Origin: Clavelina lepadiformis
Taxonomy: Eukaryota; Chordata; Ascidiacea; Aplousobranchia; Clavelinidae
Assembly: GCF_947623445.1 (NCBI RefSeq)
Contig: NC_135246.1
Span: 15,483,856 to 15,547,855 of the forward strand
DNA: 64,000 nucleotides
Direction: 5' to 3'
In this document: positions 13,242-45,996 of the stretch, in pieces
How positions within the stretch are numbered: the first letter of the stretch is position 1
Layout of the letters: each line of letters starts with the position of its first letter
Made by a program: the position numbers and the translations under genes
Notes under the pieces: generated by a model
Seen by the model: the letters and a program-made list of their open reading frames with translations, nothing else
Told to the model about the DNA's origin: nothing
Database searches by the model: none

Positions 13242-16200
13242 CTATAGCAGGTTGCGCACATGGACTACAACGGCTCCAGCTCTTCCCGTGTTGAGAGGTG
13301 CGACCTTCGTCCATTCGTTTGATTGCGGGTCGTAGGATTCACACGTTGATAAGTAGGACTGCCCTGAAATAAAAATGTGGCTTGGAAACTTAAAAAAAGA
13401 CGGTTGCAAAATGTAAATAATCTAAAATACTACAGTATTGTTATACACTCCTTAGTGCTTTGCACATGTTAGTTACTCACCATCGTAGCCACCACAAGCA
13501 TACAGGTGTCCACCAAGGACGCAAATACCAACTGCATCCCTTGGGACACTCATGGAAGCCACAATGGTCCACTGGTCAGTCTTGGGACTGTATCTAGAAA
13601 AGAAATTCCGTCGTTATTATTTATCACCACCTATCGATATTGAGCAAAGCTATACTATAGGGCATAGGCATTTACAGTGCCATTAGTAAACTGTAAACAG
13701 AGATATATGGTCCTTACCGTTCCACACTCTCAGACAACTTAGACATCTGGTTACTGGCAGGTGCGTCATGGCCCCCAATTGCATAGAGATGAGCGCCACA
13801 TACACCAACACCGACCCCGCCCCTGCGCTTTGACATGGGGGCACAGTTTGTCCACTTGTTTGTGTGGGGGTCAAAACACTCCACAGAGCGCAGACAGGAA
13901 CTGCCGTCTCTACCACCGACTGCATAAAGCCTACAAAGAGAAAAGATATGTGAACATAAGTATTATTTCAAGGTGTTTATGAAAACTGGTTGAAATTTAA
14001 GATAAGAAAAACGACTGCTCGTTGAACACGTTTGGGGTTGAGAAATAAAAGCAATCGCTCATTGAGTACTGATGTAACGTACCCTTCCATAAACATTCTT
14101 ACTTGTCAAACAAAACTGCGACGCCAACCGTGCTTCTAGATACGGACATGGGTGCAACATAGTTCCACGCTCTTGCTTGCGGGTCCCATCTCTCAACGGT
14201 GTTGAGATAGCTCCAGCCATCATGACCTCCTACGGCATACATGGGGCCACTCAAAACTGCAACTCCTGTAGATTTCAATGGAAGACTTTCAGTCATTTTA
14301 TCATTGCAACATAACTATTGACAAAACCTATTGAAAACTATGTGTACAGACAGCATTAGTTGTCTCAAATTATCACACTGTTTTCAATGTCATTCAAGAA
14401 GCTGCTGATACGAATGTTAAACGTTGCTTGGTAGAACTTGAAACCTGCTGCTCACCCAACCCGTGTCGATGTGTTGCTACAGGAGGCATAACACTCCAGG
14501 TCTTTGTTCTGGAGTTAAAACATTCAACCGAGTTCAGAGTTTTGAGACCATCTCTGCCACCGACAACATATAGCTTGTCTTCCAGAACCGCTACTCCGAA
14601 CTGCAGTCGTCTGCCAGTCATTTGGGCGATCTGGGTCCACTGATTGATGCGGACATCATAACGTTCAATGCTGGTCGCACCTGTGTTTTTAAATTGACTT
14701 TATTATTGCACTGTAAAGCTAAAACTTGGTGATGATTTAGAATAGCTGAACTGTAATGTTTTAGTCCTTTTCAAACATCTGTCGTGAATTTAGCTATGTC
14801 TAAATGATAAGCTATTACTATTAACTTATTAGCACAATTTTGAGTACAACTGTGATGCTTGTTAAACACAATGGAAACTCTCAATTCAATGCGGTTGAAT
14901 CATAATTCATAACCTAAGCGGTGATAATTAAACCTCAGTGAGTTAGTGAACCCATGTGAAAACTGTGACTCAAAGTAGTCTAAGTCTAAGTAGTCCAAGT
15001 ACTAATGCTTAGCACATAGTGGTAACAAGTAGTTCTATGTTGTCGTTAATTTTTTGAAAAAAAACCTTAAGTACACAACATATCCGATTACACTTTGATC
15101 AAACAAAATCATTAAAACATTATATATATAATATATACATCGTTTTAAACCAACATGCTAAGCATTAAACTGTATTTAATGTCATATCTGTAAACTACTA
15201 TTCCAGTGTATTTACCAATTACACAACATGGTGATAAATTTTACCAGGTTTACATTAAATCTGAGCAGGCACACCTTTAGACAGAAACAAATTAAGCAAA
15301 GATACATTTTGATCCCTAAGACAAAAACGGGACATAGTACTTAGGAAAACGATTAGCAAGTGCAATGTGGTCACACACACACATAAATATGTTATCTCCA
15401 TCTACAACATCACGTTCAAATGAACTGTGAACAATATATCAAAGTTTCCTTTAAATGAAGCAGTAATTTCTGTGTTATATGACTCATAACAGAACACTGT
15501 AATACTAATGAACGAAAACAGCTGCACGGCATGCAGTCAGGTTCAGGTTGGTGACATGCTCCATCCACTTGTCACACATACAAACACTTACATGAGAATC
15601 CAGCTGGTGGTGCAAAAAGCAATTAGTTAATCAACAAGGCTAAAATGTAGAAAGAAACAGCAGCAGCAAGACCTGTTCTCCAGCTGAATACCAATAAATT
15701 ATTTTACTGTGTTGCTTTACACAGGTCAAGAAGCCAAGTTTAGTCTGATATGAACAATGAACAAAGTGAAACAAACACATGGGAAGGAAAGGTAATAAGT
15801 GCCAAGCAACCTAGGGATGAAGATTCTCGCATTGCCATCGAAAGACTTCCATTTAGTCAGATAGTTTAACTTACATCGCTGATAATTTCATTAAAACTAA
15901 ATACATAAAACAAAAACCATACTGTCAGACATAATGAACCATCAGTATAAATTTTAAACAACCAAATCAATTCTAATGAGATTGGAAAAGATGCTGTGGT
16001 TAAATAGGGGAAGCTTTGCAAAAGGGCGATGTATGAAATTGAAACCTTGCCCTGCACATCGACATCCACTGCACTATCATAGTAAGTAAATGATCGTTTT
16101 TTAATCAAAAATAATGAAAAAAAATTTTTAATTACCTTTTGAATTAAGCTATTGGGTATACCCTTTGGATTTCTTTATTATCTTGAAAGATAATGCACAA

Positions 16201-17972
16201 TTACAGTATATACCTTTGGAATTGTCCATACCACCAATGGCATATAGATGACCCATCGTTGATTTTCTTGGTGGTTTTAAACAAGGACGCCTCGCAGGAA
16301 GCATATGGTAACTCATTGCAGCAATAATCTGGTGTTCACATGGTAAGTTCTGGTTAATTAGGGAATTTGTCTGTACTCTATCAGCAAGAAACTGCAACAG
16401 AAAAAAAAAACAGAAACTAAGCAGAAGTTGCAGTACACACCAACCATGCAGAAACATTCTCTGGGCATATAATACTCTAGCAAGATCCTTTTTACGTCTG
16501 AAATGGGAAAAAGCCATAAAAATACTGTTTAATGACCGCATGACTCACTTCTTTGCTCATGTGAGTTAGTCGAATGTGTGACAGCAACTCAGGCATGTGC
16601 TGTTTTCGCTCTGCTTCTGAATGCTTCACCCAGATAAGTAAGGCTTCAAATAGAGTCATTTCGCTTGGAACATTAACATCATCGCTTCCCACTAACTCAC
16701 ATACCTGGACATCAGTAAAACAGCATTATGCAATGTTTATCCAGATGAAGTCATTATATTATATTCTACAGACATTAAACATTGACCACCATGACAGAAT
16801 AAATTCATTACTGGTAACTAACAACGACGATAATGGAAAGTCGTGCACCTGATTAAAGTGAAGCATAACAAACTCCTGATTTCGCATGACATCAGTGAAA
16901 TGCTCCTAAAATGTTGAAATAAAATACTGCAAATCATAGATCATAAACATTATGCCTAGAGTAGTCTATATACAGAGTCTAAAAATCACATCTTGTTTAA
17001 TGTAGAGTAAACATCTGGATAAAAAGTTTTGTCTGGTTGCATGGAACACAAATGATAAAGAACTACAAACCATGGTATACACGTGAGCTTCTTTGTAAAG
17101 GCGATGACAGCTTTGTAGATCTGCAAATGCTCGTATCCCAAGACAGTTTGACGGATGAAGTTGTTTCATCAAAAAGTTACAGCCAGCATCAACAACTGGA
17201 TGCAGTTGCAACATATTGGCAGTTGATAGAACTCTCTCCACATTTTCTTCACTCATTTCCAGTCTTCCTGATTCAGGAAAAAAAGCAAAAAAATAATTCA
17301 AGTAAAATATACAAGGTATTTGTTTATCTTCGCACTTGGCTCCAAGAAAATGTCTAAAAATACTAATTCTGTTTACCGCATTCTACCTGTGTACATATAT
17401 GAAATGATCTTTTCAAGAGCATCTGCATCAACATCACTGATTGTCACTTCTTCTTCATGAGACTCTCGCACATCATTGTTGAACATTGCCTTAAAGTAGT
17501 CGGATACCGATGACAAAACCAAGCGATGTGCAGGTATCCGCTTTGGCCCAGCTGCATAAAATAAAGATGTGATACACCGATTTATCCACTCCATTGCCTT
17601 AAGCTACTCAGTGAAACTGATATGCATTGCATCATGAAAAAGTAATTTGCCATAAGTTAGAAAAATCAGAAGTGCTCAGACATTCCTGTTTCAAAATAAG
17701 TTTAATTTTGGCAGTTTCAATAATGCAATGAAAACACAACCCAATACTCGCTTGTAAAAACATCATACCTAAATACCTAATAACATTTCCTAAACATGCT
17801 TACAAATACACAACTTGGAAACACGTAAACAACACTTGGCTTGAAGTGTGTATCCACCTTTAAACTTACCAATAATGACAACATCACATAGTTGCTGGTT
17901 TTGCAAATGTTCTTGTATTTTTTTCATTGTGCATGACGCATGATTGAGATAAATAAAATCACTGCCATCCAT
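13242..17972 (-). CDS. KLHL5: Kelch-like BTB-BACK-Kelch protein of the KLHL1/4/5 group
   Basis: Eleven exons in transcript order: 17972-17870, 17551-17387, 17267-17071, 16905-16849, 16704-16549, 16391-16214, 14680-14456, 14265-14103, 13930-13718, 13593-13481 and 13363-13242. They give 563 aa. The BTB domain (about residues 15-130) has QLCDVVI and [20 protein letters not shown]. The BACK domain has [21 protein letters not shown] and [20 protein letters not shown]. Six Kelch repeats follow, including [20 protein letters not shown] and [20 protein letters not shown]. The repeats match KLHL5, KLHL4 and KLHL1 far better than other KLHLs. Such proteins are CUL3 ubiquitin-ligase substrate adaptors, often actin-associated. 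The model starts just before BTB at an ATG with an upstream in-frame stop, so the long variable N-terminus of vertebrate members is absent or in unseen 5' exons. The 1.5-kb intron 6 is the longest. Confidence 0.93.
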
Positions 17973-18250
17973 TTCCAATAACGTCTACTCCGTTAACAGA
18001 TTAGAACATAAGCAGAAAGAACATCAGCCAATATCTGACATAAATAGACCATTTCAATGGCACCAGTGCAGTTCACATACTGGGATTAACAACCTTTAAC
18101 CGACAAAACAATATATTTTAACAAAAAGATATTCTGTACAAACATAACAAATTTAATTTGACAAACTAATACACAATACATGGAAATTTACAATCCCAGA
18201 TTAAGATTATGTGACATAGTTTAAATCTTATGATAAGATTCACAGATGCT

Positions 18251-18395
18251 CCAACTGGCTCGGTGTGGTTGGTGTGCCTGACTCGTAAATTTGTGAGCCA
18301 GGTTAAATTCCCAGTTGTGCTACCATTGCAATACCCTTAAGCAAGGTACGACTGACGCTTGCTTCTGTTCAGCGGTCCAAGTGAACAGCTCCAAA
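18251..18395 (+). repeat. tRNA-derived SINE copy
   Basis: It has a tRNA-like head with an A-box-like CGGTGTGGTTGG and a B-box-like GGTTAAATTCC (18301). The body, CCCTTAAGCAAGGTACGACT then GCTTGCTTCTGTTCAG, aligns with the body of the copy at 4409. The ends are approximate. Confidence 0.6.
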
Positions 18396-18659
18396 TTCTC
18401 CAAATTTTCGCCAAAAGCGCGGTGGAGACAAAAAATCAAGTCAGTTGTTACTAACACGGGTAAATGAACAGGAAAAAGTGACAAAACCGAAAAGGCTGAA
18501 ACTAAAGCATGCTCAAGAGAAATAACTTTGACATTTGCTGGTAACAACTAGCACGACTACTAAACCTATAATTAGTTAAATCCATAAAACATTAATTTGA
18601 AAAAGCGAAAATTAAGCAGACAAGCAGGTCGTGTGTTCAAGCAGCTGATGAATGAAAAT

Positions 18660-30093: not shown

Positions 30094-33000
30094 ATGGGAA
30101 ATGCTGAAAGTGGAAGAATCAACGATTACAGATCTCGAAATGTCCCACTTAGGCTCCCTATGCCAGATACAAATGAGCTTGATGAGAGATTTGAAAAAGT
30201 TCTGGTGAGTGGGTTAAGTTTTTCATTTTTCAAAACAAACATGTAAGCATCGTATGCATATGTACTTCATTAGTTATTTAAAAACGATCTTTTATAAAGT
30301 TAGTCAGTAACCATTTATATTTATGCAGGCCTCCATGAACCTACCTCCAGATAAAGTTAAAGTCTTGAACAAATATGATAACACAAAGAAATGGGAGTTG
30401 ATTTGTGACCAAGTAAGTGTCTGATTTATTTTAATCTCTTCACCACTTTTTTACATCGTCTTAGCTAAAACTCATCCCACTGGCCAAAACAAAACCTTAG
30501 GTTGGACAAATTTTATGGCATTTTAATGTGTTTTTTATGCATCAATCATACACCCAAAATTTTGAGTGGTTCCACATTTTACTTTATTGTTCATATCTCT
30601 TAAACCTGCAAAACTTAATATTGCTAAAACTGTTGTAGGTTGATATAAGCATTATATGAGGGTTTAACATTTCTCAAATAAAGCTGCTAGATTAACTTAC
30701 TAGCAATTGTACTGGACAACTGGTATTTTTGTCTTATGTTGCCCAGTTATGTACATGATATACAGTACATAAGTAACAAATTTATAGCAGCTTGCTTCAA
30801 TCGTTGTTGCTACTCTGTTCTCATTGCAACTACAAACTTGATTATCTAGTGATTGTTTCATGAATTGTAACTTAAAATGGTAAAATTGGCACAAAGAAAA
30901 AGGCAGGTTACTTTCATATATGCATATGAAATGTTTTATTTACAGCAGCAACAGATGTCATGCTGGTTGCAAGGTTTTGCTATTTATTTATTTATGAAAC
31001 AAGTGTTTTAAACAACTGGTGTGTCGTTACTATATGTATGTACACAAACACGCATTTAGAAGCAGTGCTTGTGGCAGTTATTGTTTTTGTTCTGGTTGGC
31101 TGTAAGCCTGTATGTCATTTTGTTAGTTGTTGCATTTTGTATTTTATACTCTATATTGGGCAAGGTTCTCAGACAATTTCACTGTGTTTAATATGTAGGC
31201 CTATTTAGTATTTACTATATCATATCATAGATATAGTACACATACAATATATGATTATACTATATATATATAAATAAAATTATAAAATTTATATTGAAAG
31301 CTTAGCATTTAAGTAATTTTGATGTCAAAATTTTGAACATTGTTGTTTTTTAGAGTGCATTCAAGGTTTATGTCTATCAATATCATTATGCTGACAGATA
31401 TGTTTTTTGACCTGCAAAGCATGTTAGCCCAATTGTATAATTAAGTAGAATGAAACATCAAATGTCATGGCATTTCGTGGTGTGCTAGCATTTCTGGAAA
31501 ATTTGTTACTGGGTTCTTATAAGGTTAGGTCATAAACCCAGAAATGGTTTTGAATTAAAGTTGTGGTATATTTTGAGGAGTTAGTTGTAAAAAATGGTTG
31601 ATCTTTTAAAAGTATTTCTATATTTTTGAAGAGTGGTCATCTAATCACAGTGGCTACAGTTACCAGTGTATATAGCATTATAAATGTTTCATGAATAGAT
31701 TTAACAGTGATGTGTATTATTATTTAAGAAGATTTATAAATGCAGCAAAGATGAAATGCATTTATTCCATATGTTTTATCCCACGTCACGATTTATCCCA
31801 CGTCACGATTCCACGTAATTTGATCCTTCCCAATAAACACATATGTGCGATTAGCAATTACCCTAATTACACATGCTAGGAATGATGTGGACACTGCTAA
31901 TACTGCACTCGTTAATGGCTGATTGCAAGGAAATAAATGTTGTGCCATGTATATATATCTATAATTTATTAATGCATTGATTTCAAATGTTCATCAGTAC
32001 CTGTACATACCTGTACAGTTATTAATTTTATGTATTATTGGGTTTATTGTTGACTTGTACATAACAACTGTCCTTTTTAATTTTTTTTTTGCTTTTTTAT
32101 TGCAGGATAAAGTGGAAGTAAAGCATCCTCCATCACACTACATTGATGCTCTCCAAAGCTACCTTGATCCAACTCTCAGAAGAAAAAGATTTAGGAAAAG
32201 GATTGCCCAATCAACAAAAACCCTTCGTGATCTGGAAATTTCATTACGGACAAATCATATAGGGTACTATTGATCAATATTTCGTTTATACGTGTGGAAT
32301 CTTCTACCGTGTGTTGACAACATAGTTAAGCATACACACAAACGTGCTTGTAGTTTGTACGTTTCCAAGTGGTCACTGACTTCTTGTCAGTGCAGAGTCA
32401 ATTGTAGATTACATCGGGCTTTGTTTGACAACTTGTAGGGAATGAGATTGTAGGTTTTTTATCATAAAGCTGTATCACATTCAACCAACCTTGCGCAAAC
32501 AATAGAGATCATGTTACTTTTCATGTCAATAGGCGATCTGTTATCTTAGATTTTTTATCCCTACTTTTATGTACGTTGTATGTTCTAGTCACTGCAGGAT
32601 TTACTTTAAAAGCTTTTTTAGATCATAATCTCTTTGCTTACTTAATCCCTTCTTGAGCAGTAGTCGTAGTACTGTGTGCATTTAATAGCTCCCCCCATGA
32701 ATATTCAATTACTTGCAAATCAGTAAAATGCATTATGCAAACGTTAATGGTTGAAATGCAGTGTATAAATAATGAGTTTGTCTTGTGAAAAGCTGATTTT
32801 CCCATTCCCAGAGTAGGGAATATCCTTAAACTTCTTAAGTGGACACCCACTGGTACCCAAGCTCTTGAAAGCTGAGTGCCCCCTGAAAAATTTTTTATGC
32901 CCAATGTGTGAAACTATTGGACTGTGAAATTGCAGTTAACAACAACTCGCTATTTGTGTGAAAACTAACTATCACAACTGATAATGCAGACATACTACAT

Positions 33001-36000
33001 AGTTCCAATTTCGAAGGGATCTTTTAAAAAGATTTTTAATTCTTGTATTTCTGCCTTTTTTGTTTTAATTCCTTCTGTTTTGTTCCTGGTATTTAGAAGT
33101 TATGTAATGGCAACAATCAGACTGTGTCACATGCTATTGTTTTGTAGTTTAAATGAAGTGACTTGTGTTTGATGTGACTACACGGGCCACTGGGTGCCCA
33201 GTGACAATCCATTCAGCTGAAATTGGATTTCGGGCACCCTAAAATCATACACCACTAAATGGTTTTCATACCTTTAGATGCATTCTTTACAATGCATATG
33301 AATAGGATACTCCTGTATTTTAATATGTTAACCAATATTATCTATATTCATTAGATGGGTACGAGAGTTTTTAAACGAAGACAACAAAGGGCTTGACGTG
33401 TTGGTTGACTACCTTGCCTTTGCACAGTATGCAATGGTGTAAGTATCATTTATATTGCAATTTCCAAAGTAGCTGGTACCACATTCTTTAAAATTTACCT
33501 TTGACTGGCATACCTTTTTAGCATCTGATCGTTTGTGCAAATTAAGTGAAGAAAACCTTATACTCGATACTCAAAAGTTTGTTATTTTTCTCAACAATGT
33601 TGCACAATTTTAAGGTATGGTCGTGACTCAACTTCTTCTTCGTCATCACCAAACAAGTCACTGAATCTTGGGAGCACCGGTGACTTAAGTATCAGCACAA
33701 TGAGCTTAAGAGGCAGTTCAGGGGTGTCGTCAGTCTCACGAGCTCAAACCTTGCCCAACCGCAGAACACTCAAAAATTCAAGAACAATCATAGACAGGTA
33801 AATTTAACCAAGGATATAATTAAACTGGTGAATTACCTGAATTTTCTATTCTTAGCAAGCTACCTTACACTTATATTGTAACTTTTTATTTCAGACAGAC
33901 AAGCCAATGATAGCTAGTAATTAAATGAAGTAAATGACAGCAATTAAATTTTTGTTTTTTGCATATTCTTTCACTTTCTGCAGAGATGATGTGCATGTTT
34001 GCATAACATGCTTGCGAGCGATCATGAACTACCAGTACGGCTTTAATCTTGTCATGGCACATCCGCAATGCATCAATGAGATTGCCCTCAGCCTCAACAA
34101 CCGAAGTTTGAGGTTGAACTTACATGAACTCTTTGTAAAATATTGAATACCTTTTGTTATAATGTATTGCTAGAACATTCTAAAATGTTAGTGCATAATT
34201 TGCATAATTGCTGCATAATTTTAAAATGCAAATTGTTGCGAAATCTTTTAGGACCAAGTCACTTGTGCTGGAACTATTAGCCGCTGTTTGTTTGGTGCGT
34301 GGTGGACATGACATCATTCTACGAGCGTTTGATTATTTTAAGGCAATCTGCACTGAACCGCGGCGGTTCACTCGCCTTATGTTTTACTTTAAAACAGAGG
34401 CAGACAACATCGATTTTATGGTGAGCTCTTCTTGACTAATGATGAGTAATTAAAGTAGTTTAGCTGAGCATACGGTTTTGTTGTCCACGAATCTTTTAGT
34501 GTTTGCTGCACAATTTGTAACATACTTTGCTGAACACAAGTTTGACTTTGACCGGTATTTTTTGGATGGCACTTTGATGCATAGCAATGTGTTGGCAGTG
34601 ATGCGTCATTTCTTTCTATCAACTATATCGGTATCCTGCTTCCTTTTTGGTTACCATTTTAATTAAACATATTTTCAGGTTTCATGTATGCAGTTCATAA
34701 ATATTGTTGTACATTCCGTTGAAGATATGAATTTTCGTGTTCACCTACAACATGAATTCACTTTGCTTGGACTTGACATGTTTCTTGAGGTTGGTGACCA
34801 GCTTTTATCCACTCTATCATAAACGATCTATTGCCAAGTTGAAAGGTAGATGCTTGGTTACCACTTCCCAAAATTTCACAGGACTTAAGAAATACGGAAA
34901 GCGACAGGTTAAAGGTTCAAATCCAGGCTTACCTCGACAACATGTTTGACGTTTCAACACTTCTTGAAGATTCTGAGATGAAAGTCACTGCTTTGGAAAG
35001 AGTCGAGCACCTTGAGGAACAACTCTTAGATGTAACTATGAACTTTTAATGACCCCAAGCACAAAATCGAGGACGTTGTGTGTCAAAAAGCAAACTGTTT
35101 AAACAATTTTCTATGAATCAAAATCAGTCTTTGGTCCTTACAGGGATTATGTTAATTTTAAAAAGCAAAGGTTTCTTTGTAATGTCAATTTTTTGTTCTC
35201 ATTAGTTAAACGAAAAGTTTCAAGAACAAGAATATGAGAATATGACAAAAATCGTTCAACTGGAAAAGCAACTTTCATCGAACATGAGTGAACTCACTGC
35301 TATAAAGGTATTCCCTTGAGTAACTGAAAACCTAATGTAAAGCATAATGCCACAGTGATGTAATATTGATTTGCCATTGGGGTACTTATGCAAAATTTCC
35401 ATCTGACATATTTATGACTACTGCTACTAAGTTTCCCTGAATGTGAACAGATTTGATTTTGTCCTGACATTGCAAATGTTTATGGCATAAAACAGTAATT
35501 TTTTCTTTTTAATAGTTTTAAAAAGTCAATTGGATGGTCATTGCACATACAAGTATTTTTATTTTTGTCAGCCTATTACTATCTTTAAAGGAGATATTTT
35601 CCAAAAGCTGTTTATTATTTAATGAAAACCTTATAAGTATGGAAATGCTAAAGTTATTTATTTGTAATGTATGATTGTTATAGAAAACAGGCTACATTCC
35701 CGCTGGTGGTTTTTCACAAGTAAGTTTGACCAAAAAACTGCTGCATGATTTTAGGGGCTTTAAGTTGAAAGTTTTAAGCAATTGCACCTTGCACCCAAGT
35801 GTGAACATTTGTAAATCCATATTGATTGAATGAACTAGCTTAGCTGACCCTGGTGGCTTTTGGCTGATTTGTTTATATGGTGTGTAATAGTATACTTTTA
35901 GATGTTGCTATAAAGACTTTGCTTGTACAATTTTTCTTTTGAAATCAGTACTATAACAACTAAGTACCACTTGCACTATGCTGTACACTGGGTTGTACTT

Positions 36001-39000
36001 TCAACAAATGTGATCTTGTTTGTTTTATTCATTTGATGCAAACTGTTGTGTTGATGAAATGTTTTGATTAATGCTTACGTGGACTAGCCTGGAGATGAAA
36101 ACGATCCGACTGAAGAATCGGCTGATTTTGGTGACCCCGTGAGTATGTGGAATTTTACTCATTTTATGGAGTCTGATCCTATCAGACATTTTAAGCATTT
36201 TTATCAGGCTGGTGAATGGCAAAAAAATAATCGGCTTTCATCATCATCATCACTTGCATCGTTCACGATAAGCGCCCACAGCAGTGGTGAAGTTTCATCT
36301 GATAATGTGTTTCTCTGGGAGCCACCATTTAATGCAAATAAGAATGGAAGCTATAAAACGCAGTTGAGATCTGGAGGTGCTCCTGATCCACAGATGTTCT
36401 TGGAAGATCGAACTGATTTTACAGTTAAAGACCCCTTTCTCAGAATCGACAATTCATTTTTGATTGATCCGGATTTCAGCTTCCTCCACGGCCTTCCAGC
36501 CGTCTTAAAAGATGATGACCTGAAACCTGACTTCCCTCCTCCACCTTGGGCCATCACAGAAAAGATTGACAATGATTCAAATCTCCTTCTTTCTTCAAAT
36601 AAATCTTCCGATCAATGTGTCTATCAGGGCACTTCACAGAGTAGTGAGGTATCCTCTGCATCCAACAGTAGCAAGCTTACTGCAACAAAATTTGCGGTTC
36701 TTCCTAACATAGGGGATAGTGTTGTGACAAGGGCTCATGCTAATGTGAAAAAACCAGCAGCTGCAGAACTCTCTGAAAAACTGCAGCAAGATATGACAGA
36801 TAAACTGAGTAAAGTAGTAAATGATGTTGAGGAAAGTTGGTTTGGTGTCTCCCCCCTATCAGATCAATGGCAAAACAGCCATCTGGTTTTACCACCAATT
36901 GGTCAAAGCAATGCAGTGATGAAGTGTAACTCTTTCTCTGATACATCACTGAAAGAGAAATTAATTTCCGATCTTCCAACTATTTGGGAAGATGAGCTGT
37001 GCGACTCTCAGGTTGCATTTTGTTTTCTGTTGCATGTCATCTTTTTTGTCGTTACTTGGTATTGTCCGTTGTGTTTTGCATCTGGTTTCATGGATCGTCA
37101 AAGACAAAATTGTCCAAGCTGTACTTCCCATCTTTTGTTTGAAACAGTGCAACTCAGTATTGTTGTTTGGTGGATATTGGCAGACTTCCTAAATCTATTC
37201 AATCCAACCTTAAAGCTGTAAAGTTTACCATCCTTTGCTTTGAAAGCATGTCCTTACTTGAAAAGCTTTTAATAAGGCTTTCGGCTGTTCTTTGTGGATA
37301 TCAGGGTCAATGCTTGACTGTAACAGTGCATTATGCAGATAATTAAATTCAGTGGCTTTTGGTGCGTAAATTGTTTTTTCCCAAAAACATTTTGGTGTGG
37401 TGACCCTGCAATGTGCTTGCGCTTGTTGTTTTCTTATATCATTGTTATTTTGCACACAGTAATTGTAATATTAATGGCTTGCGATAAATGGTCTATTTTA
37501 CGTACCATAAAATGATTAAGACGTTTTAAAAAAGCACGATGAGCTACAATCAGGTTTGTGGAAAGGACTAAAATGTTTCTACTTTTAATTTAGGCAGCAT
37601 TTGATGCAAGCAACAAGCAATTGCTACAACAACGCAATCATCTGGGCAATGCACCCGCTCTGGGTGACAAAACACCTTTGAAGGGGCTTCCCCCAATGCC
37701 AGGGCTGCCTGGTAATGAACCACCTGATAATGTAGGAGGAATAAAAGTGAAAACAAAAGTAAGCTGTTGTCAACAAAAAATAACTTTAATAATTAATAAA
37801 TAACAAATCGTTTTAAATAAGCTTAGTATGAAAAAAGTTGGTTTGTTTATACTTTTTCAGCAACTTGTTTAAAAAATATTATTTGTTGTGCTATCACTTT
37901 CATTTTTTTTATTCATTTCATGCACTCAGGACGCCATACAAAGTTCCGGTAAAATGCCATCCATTCCCACCCCGCCTCCTCTCATTGGTGGCGGCACCAG
38001 CGGTGGAGGTGGAGATTTATCCCTTGGAGGACCTTCTCCTCCACCTCCTCCGCCACCACCACCACCTGGAGTACCCCCTCCACCCCCAGTGGGAGGTGAG
38101 AAAATATTTAGTTGGTGTGCACCCAGCAGTGCTAATAAAATAGCTGTTAAATTCATTTAATTTTGTTTTAAAAAATTTTAATTACTTGCTGATAGTTTAT
38201 TTGTTTGGACGATTGTGAGTTTTTTTCATTGGCACGTTCTTCTAATTATATGTAATTCATTTTTGAGTTCAAGTTTTATGTTCATTTATTTTCATCATCA
38301 TGCACTTGATTCAGGAAAGAAAGAAAACACACGTAAGCACAGATGTGTGGTTGTGCGGATTCTAGCATGACTTATTGTTTTTTGTCCACATGTCTTAATT
38401 CCATTTTATGAAATTCATTTTTATACAATGGTCTCAGTTGCATCTTGTGTTTTATTTTGCATGCCCTCTTAGTCCAATGTTAAAAAGTTGTTTTTTTGTG
38501 CAAAATCGTCGATTACCCAGCAAAGTTAGATACTATTTAAGATCAAATGCGCTGTCGTATCTTCTGCATGCGGTCACCTCATAATATGTGCATGTCACGT
38601 CACATGTGCAATTATATAACATGCCAACACAAAGTTCTGTTTCAGTTTATCAATTAGCAGTATTAAAATTTTCTTCTGTATTTCTATACCCGAACATTTT
38701 TTGTGAATATACTGTTCCAAACATGATAAGCCGATTTCATAATTAGCACCTTCTCAAAATTTAACTTTTTTTTTTAAATTCAGGCGTGCCAGGTGTGCCC
38801 AACTTTCCTGGGAATCTTCCAGGCGGTCTTAAAGCGAAGCAACGACATCATACAAAGTATCGCTTGCCCGTGCTTAACTGGAGTGCCCTTAAACCAAACC
38901 AAGTTGCCGGGACAATATTTAACGACTTGGATGATGATTCTGTTCTCAACGAGGTTGGAAATTTGTTTGAATAAGTGAAAATCTTCTACAGGATTTGTGG

Positions 39001-42000
39001 TTAATTTAAACTCAACAAAATGCATTTCTTCTTGTAGTTTTCATTTTTTGTTTTGCTAACGGCAGTAATTTGGTACAACAAGTCTGTTTCAAATACCCCA
39101 AGTTATCATTTTTTTTTCTTCACTGCGCTTAAGAGTTGAACTTTTCTCCTGCTTTATAACAGCTTGATTTGGGAGCGTTTGAGGAGATGTTTAAAACGAG
39201 AGCTCAGGATACGGAAGCGGATCGTGCCAGATTGCTGAAGATCGCTGAAGCTCAGCAGAGGAGAGGAGCATCCATTATTGACGTGAACAGAGCCAGAAAT
39301 CTTTGTAAGTCTTTGTTGCTATTTTCTAAACTTTCAAGAGTAGGCGTTTTAAAAACATCATCAAATAAATAAATTTTCATTGCGAGTAAATCAGTCACTT
39401 GCACTGATAACAAAAAAACTATTAGTAATGCGTTCTGAAAAGTGTAAACAACCAAAATAAAGAAAAATTATGCACGAATAACTTAAATAATACTCGTTGC
39501 CTTAAGAATTGAATTAACTTGAGTGACTGTTTTAGCCTGCACTGCCCTGAGGTCAACGCAAAATGTAGTCCATATAAGCTATTGTATTATTAATTTTGTG
39601 ATATATTGCTTATTTTCAAATGAAATCTGATTAGATTTTAGACTTATTTTGGCTTTTAGTCTTTTTTATGGCGTAACCAGCTAGCCCCTTCCCCGAAATA
39701 CATTTTTTTTCAATATTAAATTCCTGGCTGAATTCATACTCCCAACCATGAGCATTGCATAGATTCAAGATTTTTGTGGGATTCGTGGCTTTCGGGATAA
39801 GGTCATGCAGGATATTATCATTCATGGAAATTGTTTTTCGGGAAAATGCTATAGACTCATTGTCATTTTGCCTCCCTGTTGAATCAACATCTGAATATTT
39901 GTGCTTCCCATGCCTTTGAAATGGCACACCAGACCTTTCACTTTACTCTTTCTGTTTAAGTACGTTTATCTGGTACTTACATCGGTACCTCCTATGGTTG
40001 CCACTATAATAAAGTACTGTTAAGCTATAATTCAAAACTATACCTGTAACGTGTTACATTTAATTTTATCACCGTCTTTGATTTCTAGCCATTACCCTTC
40101 GCAAGATCGGCTCAAGTACAGACGAAATCTGCCGCTCCGTGTATAGTTACGACCTCTCCACCTTGCCCCTCGAATATGTTGAAATGTTGCCGCGGTTCAT
40201 CCCAAACGAGATGGAGTTAAAAGCTTTTAAAGATTATGAAAAATCAGGAAAGTCATTTGACGCCCTCGCAGCAGAAGACAAGTTTATGTGGCTGGTAAAT
40301 TGTTAATGGTCTTACAATGTTTGTTGTTCAATGTACGACTAATTTTACAAAATTGCACATACACATATTTTTAGCATTGTACGTGTATATTTAGTCCTAC
40401 AAAACAATTTTTGCATGTTTTAAGACACTGTTCTTACCATCAATGAACGCAAATAGTGTTCGGAAATAATCAGCGTTTTTCTTCACAATTTATCTTCGTC
40501 CAACGCGCTTGATTTGAACAATTTATTATTAGCTGTTATTGTTTAGTTTGGCCGAGTCGAGAGATTACAACAGCGACTTAACATCATGATTTTCCTTGGA
40601 AATTTCAACGACAGCGTCATGACTTTGACACCACAAATTGCGGCAGTTATCGCGGCGTCCATGTCCATCAAATCCTCGTCAAATTTGAAGAGAGTTCTCG
40701 AGATAATTCTTGCTGTTGGCAACTACATGAACAGCGCCAAAAGAGGTGCCGTGTATGGGTTCAAGCTTCAAAGTCTCGACGCCGTACGTGCTTAGTATGA
40801 ATATTTCTTTTTTGGTATTAACTACTGTAGTTTTGCAAAAGCATAATTTGTAATATAATTAATGCACAGTCTAATTTTTACTTTGGTAGCTGTAATTCTT
40901 GTAAAATATTTTTCATCGTTTGTTTGGGAAGCATTTTGCGTATACCTTTGTATTGTAGAAACACTTTTAACTTGGTCATTGAACGCTTTCCGTTTTAGTT
41001 GATTGACACCAAATCTACGGACAAAAAGCAAACCCTTCTGCATTACATTGTGAACGTGATTGAAACTTATTACCCTGATATAAAGCACTTCTATAATGAA
41101 CTAAGATACGTCGATAGAGCTTGCAAAGGTGAGAAAAAACTTGTCTCAAGTTCATAGTTTTGTGCATTACCAAGCTGACTCAGTTTGCAAACATCAAAGA
41201 GTTTCCAACATATTATGTATTTACCATTTAGCTAATTTTTCTGTAAATGTAATGAGTAGACCGTACTAGTCCCCTTCAAATGTGTGTATGAAGTAGCCTT
41301 GGGAATTTAGCTGGTTTTCGTTACCGTTAGCTGGCGCTTTGCTGCCGTAATCATCAATTGTCAATCGCATTGTTAATTTGATGTAAAACTTGTTTATTCT
41401 TAATAATCGAGATGAAATTAATTACATTGGCAAATTATATCAAGCTAGACTCTTAAGTTCGTTGGGAAAATAATGAGCATTAAATGGCTTTCAGAGCAAC
41501 GGGTTGATGGATTACAAAAAATTTTTCCTCAAATTTTCTTCATGTTCTTCAAATTTTTATTTCGGTTAACGATTAACAAGTCTTTTATTCACTTGATGCC
41601 GCTAAGCGGTTATTAGCTGAATAAATTTTCCCCTATTTTATTTGCTTACCAACTTTTGCTTTACTTTGCTTACCACGTTTCATTGCTTTTGTAGTTTCAC
41701 TGGACAACATTGTCACAGACGTCAATTCCATTAAAAATGGGATGAACTTAACGAGGAATGAATACGAGACCCATCAACATCCAGTCTTGGAAGGGTTCAT
41801 TGAATCATCACAAGAAAAAGTGACTAAAGTAAGAAATACGGTGCTACATTGACCAGGAACAATCCTGGTGATATAATCTCTAATTCTTATCTTAACCTGC
41901 CTATACTGGGCCTTGGTATTTATTCATTTATCTTGCGCTAAATTTCGTTTTTCATATTCATATTTCAATTCATCTTTCAATTCATTCAATTCATATTTCT

Positions 42001-42902
42001 ATACATAACCTTACTTTTCAGGTTCTCCAAGATGCCGAAACAGCCAAGGAAGCTTACAAGAATGTTGTCGAGTACTTTGGGGAAACCCCTAAGACGATGC
42101 CTCCCGAAACCTTCTTCCCGATGGTGGATAGATTCATTAAAGCTTATCAGAAGGCTGAAAAGGATTTGGACGATTGGAGGATTGCTGATGTAAGATTGAA
42201 GTTATTCCACCTTCTGATAAGTTCTTCATGAAACACCCTCCTGAAATTTGGGATGAACCAACGGGAGTGGGGATGGCATCATCTTGTCTCATTCTTTGCA
42301 GGAGAAACGAGCCGAAAAGGAACGAAGAGCTATGGAGCAGCAGGAGTTAAAGCAGAAGAAGAAGTCGAAGAGGCAAGACGACGAAAAGAAGATGAAGAGC
42401 GGAGAGCAGAATCTAATCAACGAACTTCGTCACAAACAGAGGAAGGATCGAGGAGCGATAGAGAGCAAAGACGGAGCAATCGAAGATAATATTAACTGTA
42501 AGTCGACGAACATGTAGAAACATTCAACTTTATTATTATTATAGTAATAAGCATTGAGATAAGGTATTTTGGATGCTTTAACTCTTAAGAAATTTTGAAA
42601 TCCACACGATAAGATAAAGTTCTGTCACCATTTATGCTTCGTATTTTGACAGTTTAGCTGAACAATTATATTAACTTGCGGCTCTTTGATGAAATTAAAC
42701 ACGTAGGCTATGGTTGAAAGCTATAGATAGTTACTGTGGAACAATCACGCAGCATCGCGGTTGTCTTATTCCTATCTATGCTTTTAACTCCTTAGTTTTA
42801 AAATCTGAGCCATATCGTCGTGGGGACACTGTCCACCGCAGCTTTCGAAAGAAAACCCGGCCAGAGGCAACACGCGTCGCTGCAATGTCCACCATGCTGT
42901 GA
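30094..42902 (+). CDS. FMNL2: Formin-like protein (FMNL) with long insert exon
   Basis: Twenty-four exons: 30094-30204, 30329-30412, 32106-32263, 33355-33438, 33615-33797, 33984-34112, 34252-34420, 34679-34789, 34882-35031, 35206-35307, 35684-35719, 36088-37011 (or 36138), 37594-37758, 37930-38095, 38315-38332, 38784-38953, 39163-39304, 40089-40294, 40547-40783, 40999-41128, 41695-41828, 42022-42189, 42302-42497 and 42796-42902. They give 1359 aa. It is a diaphanous-related formin that nucleates and elongates actin. MGNAESGR is an N-myristoylation start. The GBD/FH3 part has [37 protein letters not shown] and ALSLNNRS. A coiled coil follows, then FH1 (ten prolines, then five), then FH2 with [28 protein letters not shown] and [18 protein letters not shown]. 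The DAD is [20 protein letters not shown], most like FMNL2/3. All phases agree. Confidence 0.95.
36139..37011 (+). other. Alternative in-frame extension of FMNL exon 12
   Basis: After the usable donor CCC|GTGAGT at 36139 the reading frame stays open for 291 more codons, to a second phase-0 donor (CAG|GTTGCA at 37012). The next exon begins at 37594 in phase 0, so either donor keeps the frame. The added protein (about residues 457-747) is Ser/Asp rich, with [23 protein letters not shown], an FPPPP motif (36532-36546) and WEDEL. Codon use and lack of stops in AT-rich surroundings argue for real coding. No counterpart is known to me in vertebrate FMNLs. Confidence 0.65.
38315..38332 (+). other. 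18-nt symmetric FMNL microexon in the FH1 region
   Basis: GATTCAG|GAAAGAAAGAAAACACAC|GTAAGC: good acceptor and donor around 18 bases encoding about GKKENT, phase 1 on both sides. Skipping it keeps the frame, so it is likely a cassette exon between the polyproline tract and FH2. Confidence 0.55.
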
Positions 42903-44298
42903 CGAAAGCAACGCTGGTCCCTGCGTCATCAAGCGGTAACGTCACGCGTCCAAGTAAGTCGTTCCGACATATGATATTGCCGGTGGGGACAAGAGAAGAA
43001 ACATTTCAATCTTAGACCAAGGCAAGAACAAAGTCCTACCGCGCAGCTGTATAAGAAGCCCCGAGTAGTGTTATACCAATTTCGTAACAAATTGTACTGA
43101 AAGCGGTGTGTTTTAGTTATTATTTGGACCGTTGCTCTTGTCGCTGCCATAGTGATCGTCTCGCTTCTGTAGTGTTGCCAGTTACATCTAACCTTAAGTA
43201 TGAAGCTTACACTTACTTTTGCTTGTTGTCATTGCAAGTGCCGCTAACCCATCTACTAATATTGTATTTTACGGTGCATTTTTATAACTACATTTCGTTG
43301 ACTTTAAAAAGTAAACCCTTTTTTCATTGTTGGACTTTTTTGTTTGATTGTTGTTCATATAAAATGCTTTAGAGTGTTACGTTTTTCTGTATTGAACTTG
43401 TCATGACTAATTAGCGACGAGTGTTCCGGTACGTTCTACTGGTGCGTGAGATTGGCTGGTTATTTTCTGGTTCATTAAATATCAGGCACTTGCCCAAAAA
43501 TTAAATCAACGTTATGTTGCCAAAAGTACTAAAAACTCTCCGGATTTTAGTTTCTGTTAAACAGTCCGCTAACCGAGGAATCAGACTAAAATGGTGGTCA
43601 CTGTCAAATAACTAACTAACTAAGTTAATAAATAAATAACTTCACAATAGGCAGCCAGCTTCACGCAGTTATTAACCAAACATAAATGTTGCACGAAAAC
43701 TATTAAGCGTGTTGTAAGTTTCTGTTCTCTTGTGCCTTTCTTACCGCCTTATATTTCAATGACGTCACCGCGCTCTGACGTAACAGCTCAGTGACGTCAC
43801 TTTTGTATGTTATATCAATAGCAATTTACCTATTTAACTTTTGGCTTGTTCGTATTTCTTTTTCGAAATTGTAGAGCAATATTAAGTGTTTCCATGTTTG
43901 ACTACATTACTTGAAGTTTCACAGTTCTAATTTGCAATTGATCTCGGTACAATGTATTGCAAAGGTTACGTGTTGCTGGACTGTTGGTACCATCCATACA
44001 TTAATTATCTGATGCCGAGAATTTTATAAAGCCATCTGTTGCAGTATGTCATACCATGCAAGCTGTTTATTGTTTTCAGAGCACTTTAAATGTCCATGTT
44101 GTTCAGATTGTCGGTGAAAAATAAATTATTTTCTCCCATGAATCTTATGGTCTTTTTTCTATTTAAAATCATGTTAGTCTGCTGCCATTTATTACCATGC
44201 CCCTTTACACCGGATGTAAAATGTTTAAAAATTTACAGACGACAAATCACAAAGATTGCGCTGTAAAAGTCTCCGCCGATTTTCCATATATACAAAGA
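42903..44298. other. FMNL 3' UTR and intergenic region
   Basis: No further gene recognised. The FMNL transcript probably ends after the AATAAA at 44120-44125. Short repeats of TGACGTCA-like motifs (near 43760-43800: GACGTCACCGCG, GTGACGTCAC) resemble CRE half-sites but have no clear gene to serve. Confidence 0.4.
44120..44125 (+). terminator. Polyadenylation signal AATAAA, probably FMNL
   Basis: Canonical signal 1.2 kb after the FMNL stop and about 175 bases from the convergent signal of the next gene. Confidence 0.5.
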
Positions 44299-44304
44299 TT
44301 TATT
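44299..44304 (-). terminator. Polyadenylation signal of the cysteine-rich gene
   Basis: TTTATT on the plus strand reads AATAAA on the minus strand, about 45 bases after the stop codon at 44350. Confidence 0.65.
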
Positions 44305-44349
44305 TCACCTCAGTCTGCATAGCGACAACATACACTTCATTAAATTTTT

Positions 44350-45996
44350 TCACTTTGACATGTGGTCAAACACTTGCAGGAAATCGTCAGATTCTTTGAA
44401 GTCTCGATCCATCAGGGTTATGACGTACGGTTCCTTGTTTTGTGACGTACTTGACATGTCATCTGCAATGACGTCAGCATCCGGCGCAATATCTACAAGA
44501 GTTATCTTGTTTTCGTTTTGGTTTGCGTCGCTTTGAAGATCATCTGATGTATTTTCTTCGTCTTCATTGTCATCATCACTCTTTGAATTCATTTCATCGG
44601 GGACGTCATTCATCAGTTCCATGGTAACCACGAAAGGCTTGTCGCCATTTTCTGAAATTTCGACAATCTCAATAGTTTCGCCTGGAGTCGTTTCGTTCAG
44701 CTTGCCGATTTCGGAATCGAGAATCTTCTCCAAGATGGCCATTTCTTCCAGGATGAAATCTGGCATCAGCTCATCCACCACCTGATCATGTTCGGTCCGA
44801 TTCTCAGCCTTCTCCGGATTCTTTTTTAGCGAAAATAATTTTTCCAACATCCCAGGCACAGGGTCAACCTCTTCTGGTTTGTCATGCCGCGGTGATTGAC
44901 AAGTTGGTTGCTCCCATGGACAGAAGCCCGGTTGACATTCCAGACCTTCCCTGCACGTTCCAGCACTCTCACCACAGGTTTGACCGAGATCACGCGAGTT
45001 AAATTGTTCTACTGTTACGCACACGCCTGCAAATGCAAGATATGCGGGCGTCTGAAAACCTATATATGCTTTTTATCACAGATATTTCTTTTTAACATAG
45101 TTTTCACTTTTCAATCAACGCAAATCATTTCTGGTCGGTAGGGTGAAATGTGATTGAATAAAGCAATCCACAATCGCCAATACCTGACTCTCCACCAGTG
45201 AAGAAAGCGAAAGGGTCAGAATCAACCCGGCACTTGAGGTCGTTAGCGCACTGGCCGTCGAAGGAGCCGCATTTTTCTCCTTCCTCGCGAGAATTGAAAT
45301 CTGCCTCCAAAACACACTTTCCAGTGCAAGCAAAAACAGATCCGTAATTACACAACAATCCGTCTCCGCACTTTCCAAGCCAATCTCCGCATTCTTCTTC
45401 CGGCCCAAGAAGACAAGATGCACATACGTCATCATCTGTAGCACAATTAGTTGCAATTGAGACTAAACAAAATCATATACTGTGCTTTCTTGAAGAGTCT
45501 ACATGCAGAGATGCACGAGTACGAGCGCGCGCTCTTTTTTTAGGAGCGGCCTCTCTTTTTTCAATGTAAAAGGACTTGTCCCACGAGCGCACTCCTTTTA
45601 AGGGGTATTCGCTTGTCGCCCTTTTTTCACACAAAAACCGGAACGCGCAAAATGTAAACAAATGGTTGGTTAAAATTTTAAGGTTTTTATATTGTCTAAG
45701 ACTATAGGACATTTTATGTAGTGAATAAGAAGGTGACTGTAGGTCTACTTACCTCCGTCGTCACTTCCGAACTGGCATCCACTGACATCTGGGCATTCCT
45801 CTACCCACCTTTCCGACTTCTTGTCAAATTTCAAATTTGGCTGTTCGCAATCGTCTCCGATAAACAAATTGAGAAAATCCCCCAAGTTGAACGAATTTGG
45901 TGACGTCATTAAGGTGCATGCTTCAGTTGATGCCGTAAATGTAACAAAAAGTGCTAAAAATATTGCAAAGGCGACAGTTCCTCTACCGAGTAACAT
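44350..45996 (-). CDS. Secreted cysteine-rich acidic protein, IGFBP-like modules
   Basis: Exons 45996-45753, 45435-45184 and 45026-44350 give 390 aa, joined in phase 1. A signal peptide (VAFAIFLALFVTFTASTEA) starts it. Three short cysteine modules share the pattern G/E-x-x-C-G-x(3,4)-G-x-C-x-x-x-L-x-C: EEECGDWLGKCGDGLLC, GEKCGSFDGQCANDLKC and GQTCGESAGTCREGLEC. The pattern resembles the N-terminal half-domain of IGF-binding and single-insulin-binding proteins. The last ~180 residues have almost no cysteine and are very acidic (SKSDDDNEDEENTSDDLQSD), with repeated hydrophobic-acidic motifs such as PFVVTMELM and PYVITLMDRD. The role is unknown; an extracellular ligand-binding or calcium-binding protein is plausible. 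It is convergent with FMNL. No named orthologue is recognised. Confidence 0.8.
45506..45625. repeat. Partial hAT-like end in intron 1 of the cysteine-rich gene
   Basis: CAGAGATGCACGAGTACGAG followed by GCTCTTTTTTTAGGAGCGG resembles the inverted right end and interior of the MITE at 21981-22342 (CAGAGATGGGCACGAACG, GCTCTTTT). No matching right end or target duplication was found, so it looks truncated. Confidence 0.4.

Follow-up and report, generated by a model that had tools for sequence, protein, structure and literature searches.

A gene of the ascidian Clavelina lepadiformis that we assign to the FMNL formins contains a long coding insert between the coiled coil and FH1, and this insert carries FPPPP, a plausible docking motif for EVH1 domains. 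The explanation that we prefer overall, by a narrow balance, is a separate exon encoding a linker arm for EVH1 docking. More specifically, a 69-nt intron would divide exon 12 (36088-36138, 51 nt) from a distinct, phase-symmetric exon of 804 nt (36208-37011), and the latter would add 268 residues to the linker that connects the dimerising coiled coil with FH1. With one FPPPP and no recognised domain, this linker may behave as a flexible arm, holding a weak docking site for the resident Ena/VASP EVH1 domain away from the profilin-binding FH1. An Ena/VASP tetramer may thus sit near the barbed end bound by FMNL, with a presumed effect on actin. The explanation builds on four observations, namely the identity of the gene, the coding nature of the insert, the motif and an Ena/VASP-type EVH1 domain encoded in the genome.

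Features of the FMNL gene and of the region around its linker insert (positions are those of the window, the whole 64-kb stretch of DNA analysed here, except for the window itself)
Feature	Position	Strand	Remarks
Window	G000:C7:15483856-15547855		64 kb; Clavelina lepadiformis chromosome 7; 209-Mb genome
FMNL formin gene	30094..42490	+	22-exon working model, from ATG to DAD-like region; GBD, FH3, FH1, FH2
Exon 12	36088..36138	+	51 nt; phase 0-0; weak acceptor (-1.08)
Probable intron	36139..36207	+	69 nt; GTGAGT...TTTTTATCAG; open in frame; taken as coding in an earlier reading of the sequence
Exon 12b	36208..37011	+	804 nt; phase 0-0; 268 codons for the linker insert, which follows the coiled coil and precedes FH1
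FPPPP, EVH1 class I core motif	36532..36546	+	motif definitions from excerpts of PMC8789275 and PMC9581539
Intron after insert	37012..37593	+	codon score falls at its start
Next exon	37594..37758	+	holds LPPMP, the second broad EVH1 core match
FH1 exon, poly-proline	37930..38095	+	no [FWYL]PxPhiP match

The assignment to FMNL follows from domain and structure matches. Because the predicted protein matches GBD (PF06371, E 3.4e-28), FH3 (PF06367, E 7e-37) and FH2 (PF02181, E 1.1e-97) in Pfam, and because its best PDB matches are FMNL2 (E 3.7e-155) and FMNL1 for the N-terminal part and FMNL3 for the FH2 part (E 5e-132, against 1.9e-58 for DAAM1), we regard the gene as an FMNL formin. The Pfam matches were obtained with a version of 1,293 residues, from which the 69-nt piece had been removed; the full chain of 22 exons translates to 1,316 residues with no stop. 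An earlier reading made without database searches (hereafter the sequence-only reading) had already called the gene FMNL and had placed the insert between the coiled coil and FH1, and both statements hold in our model.

The model begins with MGNAESG, so that an N-terminal glycine is present; myristoylation of FMNL2/3 is reportedly the topic of one study, judging by the title of a reference. No homologue supports exon 11, exon 12 or the insert, and exon 11 is a microexon of 36 nt. Because exons 8 to 13 (34679-37758) are in phase 0 at both ends, skipping any one of these would preserve the frame. At the other end of the gene (42490-44350), the DAD-like KDGAIEDN is followed by ACT/GTAAGT (the slash marks the exon boundary) and read-through would stop soon beyond; the 3' end of the model is a working one. 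Exon matches from an FH2 search of the genome were grouped by eye into ten other places with formins. The question of a second FMNL was addressed for the formin on chromosome contig C2, which is closest to DAAM1.

The insert codes for protein, as indicated by an open frame far beyond chance, exon-like codon use and frame-specific composition. The frame that starts at 36088 remains open to 37221 (377 codons); no other stop-to-stop frame in the window is as long, the runner-up having 240 codons. Between the GTs after 36138 and 37011 lie 873 nt, or 291 codons, without a stop, as the sequence-only reading had described. Computed from second-order composition, the probability of 291 stop-free codons is 8.5e-9 for intron-like composition, 2.0e-8 for the composition of the insert itself and 3.5e-6 for exon-like composition. 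When a codon score was trained to separate the remaining FMNL exons from FMNL introns, 36208-37011 obtained +0.12 per codon, inside the range of FMNL exons (-0.12 to +0.65, not left-one-out). Among 39 overlapping intron windows the highest value is -0.18, and the score drops to -0.67 in the window starting at 37012. Codon-position nucleotide composition puts frame 0 of the insert ahead of the next frame by 22.3 nats, compared with best-frame margins of 1.7-14.1 nats in the six introns of at least 500 nt. One result counts against our explanation: in the last third of the insert (36751-37011), the codon score slightly favours frame 2 (0.123) over frame 0 (0.052).

The encoded protein is rich in Ser and Asp, and it returned no Pfam match at E up to 0.1 and no PDB match at E up to 1. 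A search for relatives elsewhere in its own genome recovered only the insert itself; there were none in viral contigs, and ten pattern matches in prokaryote contigs, of which none was confirmed. Within the insert, 36823-36849 encodes DVEESWFGV, which resembles what we take to be the LC3-interacting motif.

FPPPP conforms to the class I EVH1 core [FWYL]PxPhiP and is the sole broad core of this kind in the insert. Elsewhere in the model of 1,316 residues, LPPMP alone gives a broad match, 191 residues after FPPPP, and FH1 contains none. An aspartate directly precedes FPPPP, which is followed by W, A and I, and the next acid is a glutamate at the fifth position (WAITE). The motif consequently departs from the full class I consensus, given in an excerpt of PMC9581539 as [D/E]FPPPPx[D/E][D/E], by the absence of the downstream acids at +2 and +3. 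FPPPP flanked by acids on both sides, as the sequence-only reading had it, is correct for the motif and for the preceding acid, the first acid that follows being the glutamate at the fifth position.

The core [FWYL]PxPhiP binds weakly and occurs 4,994 times in the human proteome, according to excerpts of PMC8789275, which also report that flanking acids and prolines raise the affinity of EVH1 ligands. When the residues of the insert were shuffled (20,000 trials), a broad match appeared in 7.8% of trials and exact FPPPP in 0.02% (0.0002), a figure that flatters the motif because real proline runs cluster. It is an evenly balanced question whether the exon is real and FPPPP is incidental, either a mere proline run or a site for WW, SH3 or profilin, with the insert acting as a spacer. 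This alternative concerns function and is compatible with any exon layout. The commonness of FP4-type cores, the frequency of broad matches among shuffles and the missing downstream acids all speak for it; the rarity of exact FPPPP in shuffles, the acid immediately upstream and the ligand-binding aromatics that the resident EVH1 domain retains, as judged by eye, speak against it. We hypothesize that FPPPP binds EVH1, while regarding such binding as rather doubtful; recruitment of an EVH1 protein is possible, given one five-residue match with a partial flanking consensus.

The Clavelina genome encodes an Ena/VASP-type EVH1 domain, as assigned by its closest structural matches. A WH1 search of the genome returned six exon matches at three places. 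On C6, a pair of exons joined by hand encodes 103 residues, which in the PDB match ENAH best, followed by VASP and EVL (E about 1e-29); Spred (1.8e-10) and Homer lie far behind. Against the EVH1 domain of ENAH, 101 residues align with one single-residue gap (E 3.3e-37). By eye, this alignment retains the Tyr, Trp and Phe of the aromatic triad, which an excerpt of PMC10340426 names for VASP.

Ascidians belong to the sister group of vertebrates, and the Clavelina protein has GBD, FH3, coiled coil, FH1 and FH2 in the same order as vertebrate FMNL1, FMNL2 and FMNL3. It differs from them by the 268-residue coding exon between the coiled coil and FH1; we know of no such linker exon in vertebrate FMNLs, and the matched PDB chains do not span the linker. 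Listeria ActA, zyxin and lamellipodin contain FP4 ligands in several copies, with acids soon after each. Clavelina FMNL is like them in having an FPPPP core with an acid before it, and unlike them in having one FPPPP and one LPPMP, with no acids at +2 and +3 after FPPPP. FMNL3 filopodia and Ena/VASP were reportedly studied together by Young and colleagues in 2018.

The coupling of formins to Ena/VASP proteins through EVH1 is already published. According to excerpts, Drosophila Ena EVH1 binds the FH1 of Dia directly with a Kd of 13.3 uM and inhibits nucleation (PMC3992947), and VASP EVH1 pulls down mDia1, with competition by an inhibitor of the FPPPP-binding site (PMC9581539). Dia is thus bound at FH1, whereas the Clavelina FPPPP lies outside FH1 and is a candidate proposed from sequence; mDia1 belongs to another formin subfamily, and the excerpted text of PMC9581539 mentions no insert of the Clavelina FMNL kind. 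Within the limited literature searched, some of it in excerpt, we found no FMNL linker with FPPPP or an EVH1 site, and for this subfamily a copy of FPPPP located off FH1 may be new. Both FMNL formins and proteins of the Ena/VASP type act in filopodia, and their coupling is still open in the literature at hand. If the docking site is real, an EVH1 site off FH1 would allow tethering apart from the inhibition by FH1 binding described for Dia in the excerpt of PMC3992947, and an ascidian would offer a natural test case. If the motif is incidental, a large linker exon remains, which is ordinary.

We then consider how the insert is joined to exon 12, which turns on the 69-nt piece between them. The donor after 36138, CCC/GTGAGT, leaves phase 0; its intronic half is good and its exonic half poor, giving a total score of 5.31. 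The gene accepts C at -1 elsewhere (GCC/GTACGT at 40783). Because scores of at least 5.31 are also reached by four GTs within other FMNL exons, however, the score of the 36138 donor proves nothing by itself. Before 36208, 69 nt past this donor, stands an acceptor, AGCATTTTTATCAG/G, that is absent from the list in the sequence-only reading. Its score of 7.62 is the best among the AGs listed in 36100-37300 and exceeds those of 16 of the 21 acceptors of the FMNL model; two further AGs inside the 69-nt piece score 4.70 and 5.77.

The composition of the piece resembles that of introns. Its GC content (0.319) is close to that of the introns (0.322), compared with 0.422 in the rest of the insert and 0.443 in the other exons. 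Its codon score is -0.188. None of the 246 windows taken from the remainder of the insert is that low, and 11 of the 549 windows from the other exons (left-one-out) are; of 6748 intron windows, 2179 score at least this high. These windows overlap and are not independent. Across 3,024 nt of other FMNL exons, GTRAGT does not occur, no AG attains 7.62, and nothing resembles a mini-intron, defined as a pair formed by a GT of at least 4.5 and an AG of at least 6 spaced 50-130 nt apart. By comparison, 27 GTs reach 5.31 and 7 AGs reach 7.62 in 7,867 nt of FMNL introns.

The length of the piece was at first taken as too short for an intron here, as the minimum is 92 nt among the 21 introns of the FMNL model and 82 nt among 35 estimates for myosin introns. 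This objection is weakened by a DAAM-like formin on the minus strand of C2 (L020), which has introns of 68 nt (116942-116875) and 56 nt (116766-116711) and whose spliced protein aligns without gaps to human DAAM1 over both junctions. A third small formin gap was seen on C1 (L021). The main point against a 69-nt intron is that the piece is open and has a length that is a multiple of three. A stop-free stretch of 23 codons has a chance of 0.23-0.37, and the chance that an intron is both open and a multiple of three is roughly 0.08 (0.23 x one third).

The piece therefore has GT...AG sites, an intron-like composition and a length of a class present in the genome. Because of this composition, the strong acceptor, the absence of any such pair in exons and the 68- and 56-nt introns, we consider 36139-36207 to be, with fair probability, an ordinary intron. 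Since the piece is intron-like and has its own acceptor, GTGAGT probably acts as an ordinary donor, and the part with FPPPP probably forms a separate exon.

A single constitutive exon of 924 nt (36088-37011), in which GTGAGT would be an unused decoy, is unlikely but the better of the two competing layouts. It would account for the continuous open frame, it agrees with sampled FMNL and myosin introns that are all longer than 69 nt, and non-donor GTs of equal or higher score do occur in other exons of the gene. It is difficult to reconcile with other FMNL exons that lack both GTRAGT and an acceptor as good as that at 36208, with 69 nt that score below every window of the remaining insert, and with introns of similar length elsewhere in the genome.

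The far end of the insert is delimited by CAG/GTTGCA, a donor after 37011 that leaves phase 0 and scores 4.49; in a leave-one-out comparison, the remaining 20 donors in the FMNL model range from -0.61 to 10.46. Three of these 20 are likewise GTTG donors, after 34112, 34789 and 38953 (exons 6, 8 and 15), and all three junctions are fixed by gap-free protein alignment to FMNL1, 2 or 3. Outside this gene, T at +3 is found at the DAAM-like intron (CAG/GTTTGT, C2:116942) and in 3 of the 13 myosin junctions resolved by the automatic finder, which have GTT donors, one of them poorly scoring. Because GTTG donors are fixed by homology here and GTT donors occur in other genes, the T at +3 is no objection in this genome, and a donor at 37011 is plausible. 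T at +3 is frequent among the donors examined and was seen together with GAG or CAG, a strong exonic half.

In the sequence-only reading, one exon ended alternatively at 36138 (short) or at 37011 (long), such that splicing would toggle the linker with FPPPP. We confirm its observation that both GT sites leave phase 0; their scores are alike and within the range of other donors, and the whole stretch is open. The scheme itself is not supported, as it offers no reason for the intron-like character of the first 69 nt or for the strong acceptor at their end, and it probably rests on a missed short intron. Such a two-donor switch is one of several possibilities and not the likeliest, and we rate it as quite improbable. 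The last alternative, that the region is an intron with a frame open by chance, would fit the absence of Pfam and PDB domain matches and is rejected as highly improbable, given a probability of about 1e-8 for the open frame and a GC content, codon score and frame-specific composition that are all exon-like.

Returning to the layout with a separate exon, skipping of 36208-37011 would keep the frame, as both sides are in phase 0. A tunicate FMNL might thus have evolved an optional exon as an EVH1 dock outside FH1, with splicing deciding whether Ena/VASP travels along and the profilin sites left unblocked; we regard this scenario as a long shot. Poly(A) RNA-seq data for Clavelina are named under accession ERR10908613 in an excerpt of PMC10884593.

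Two further observations concern other genes. Upstream of FMNL, on the minus strand of the window (14099-18500), open frames resemble a BTB-kelch gene, as read from their translations. On C3, two myosin genes in opposite orientation (C3:6843615-6847160 and C3:6861184-6864705) show matching exon matches with near-equal scores and are apparently an inverted duplication.
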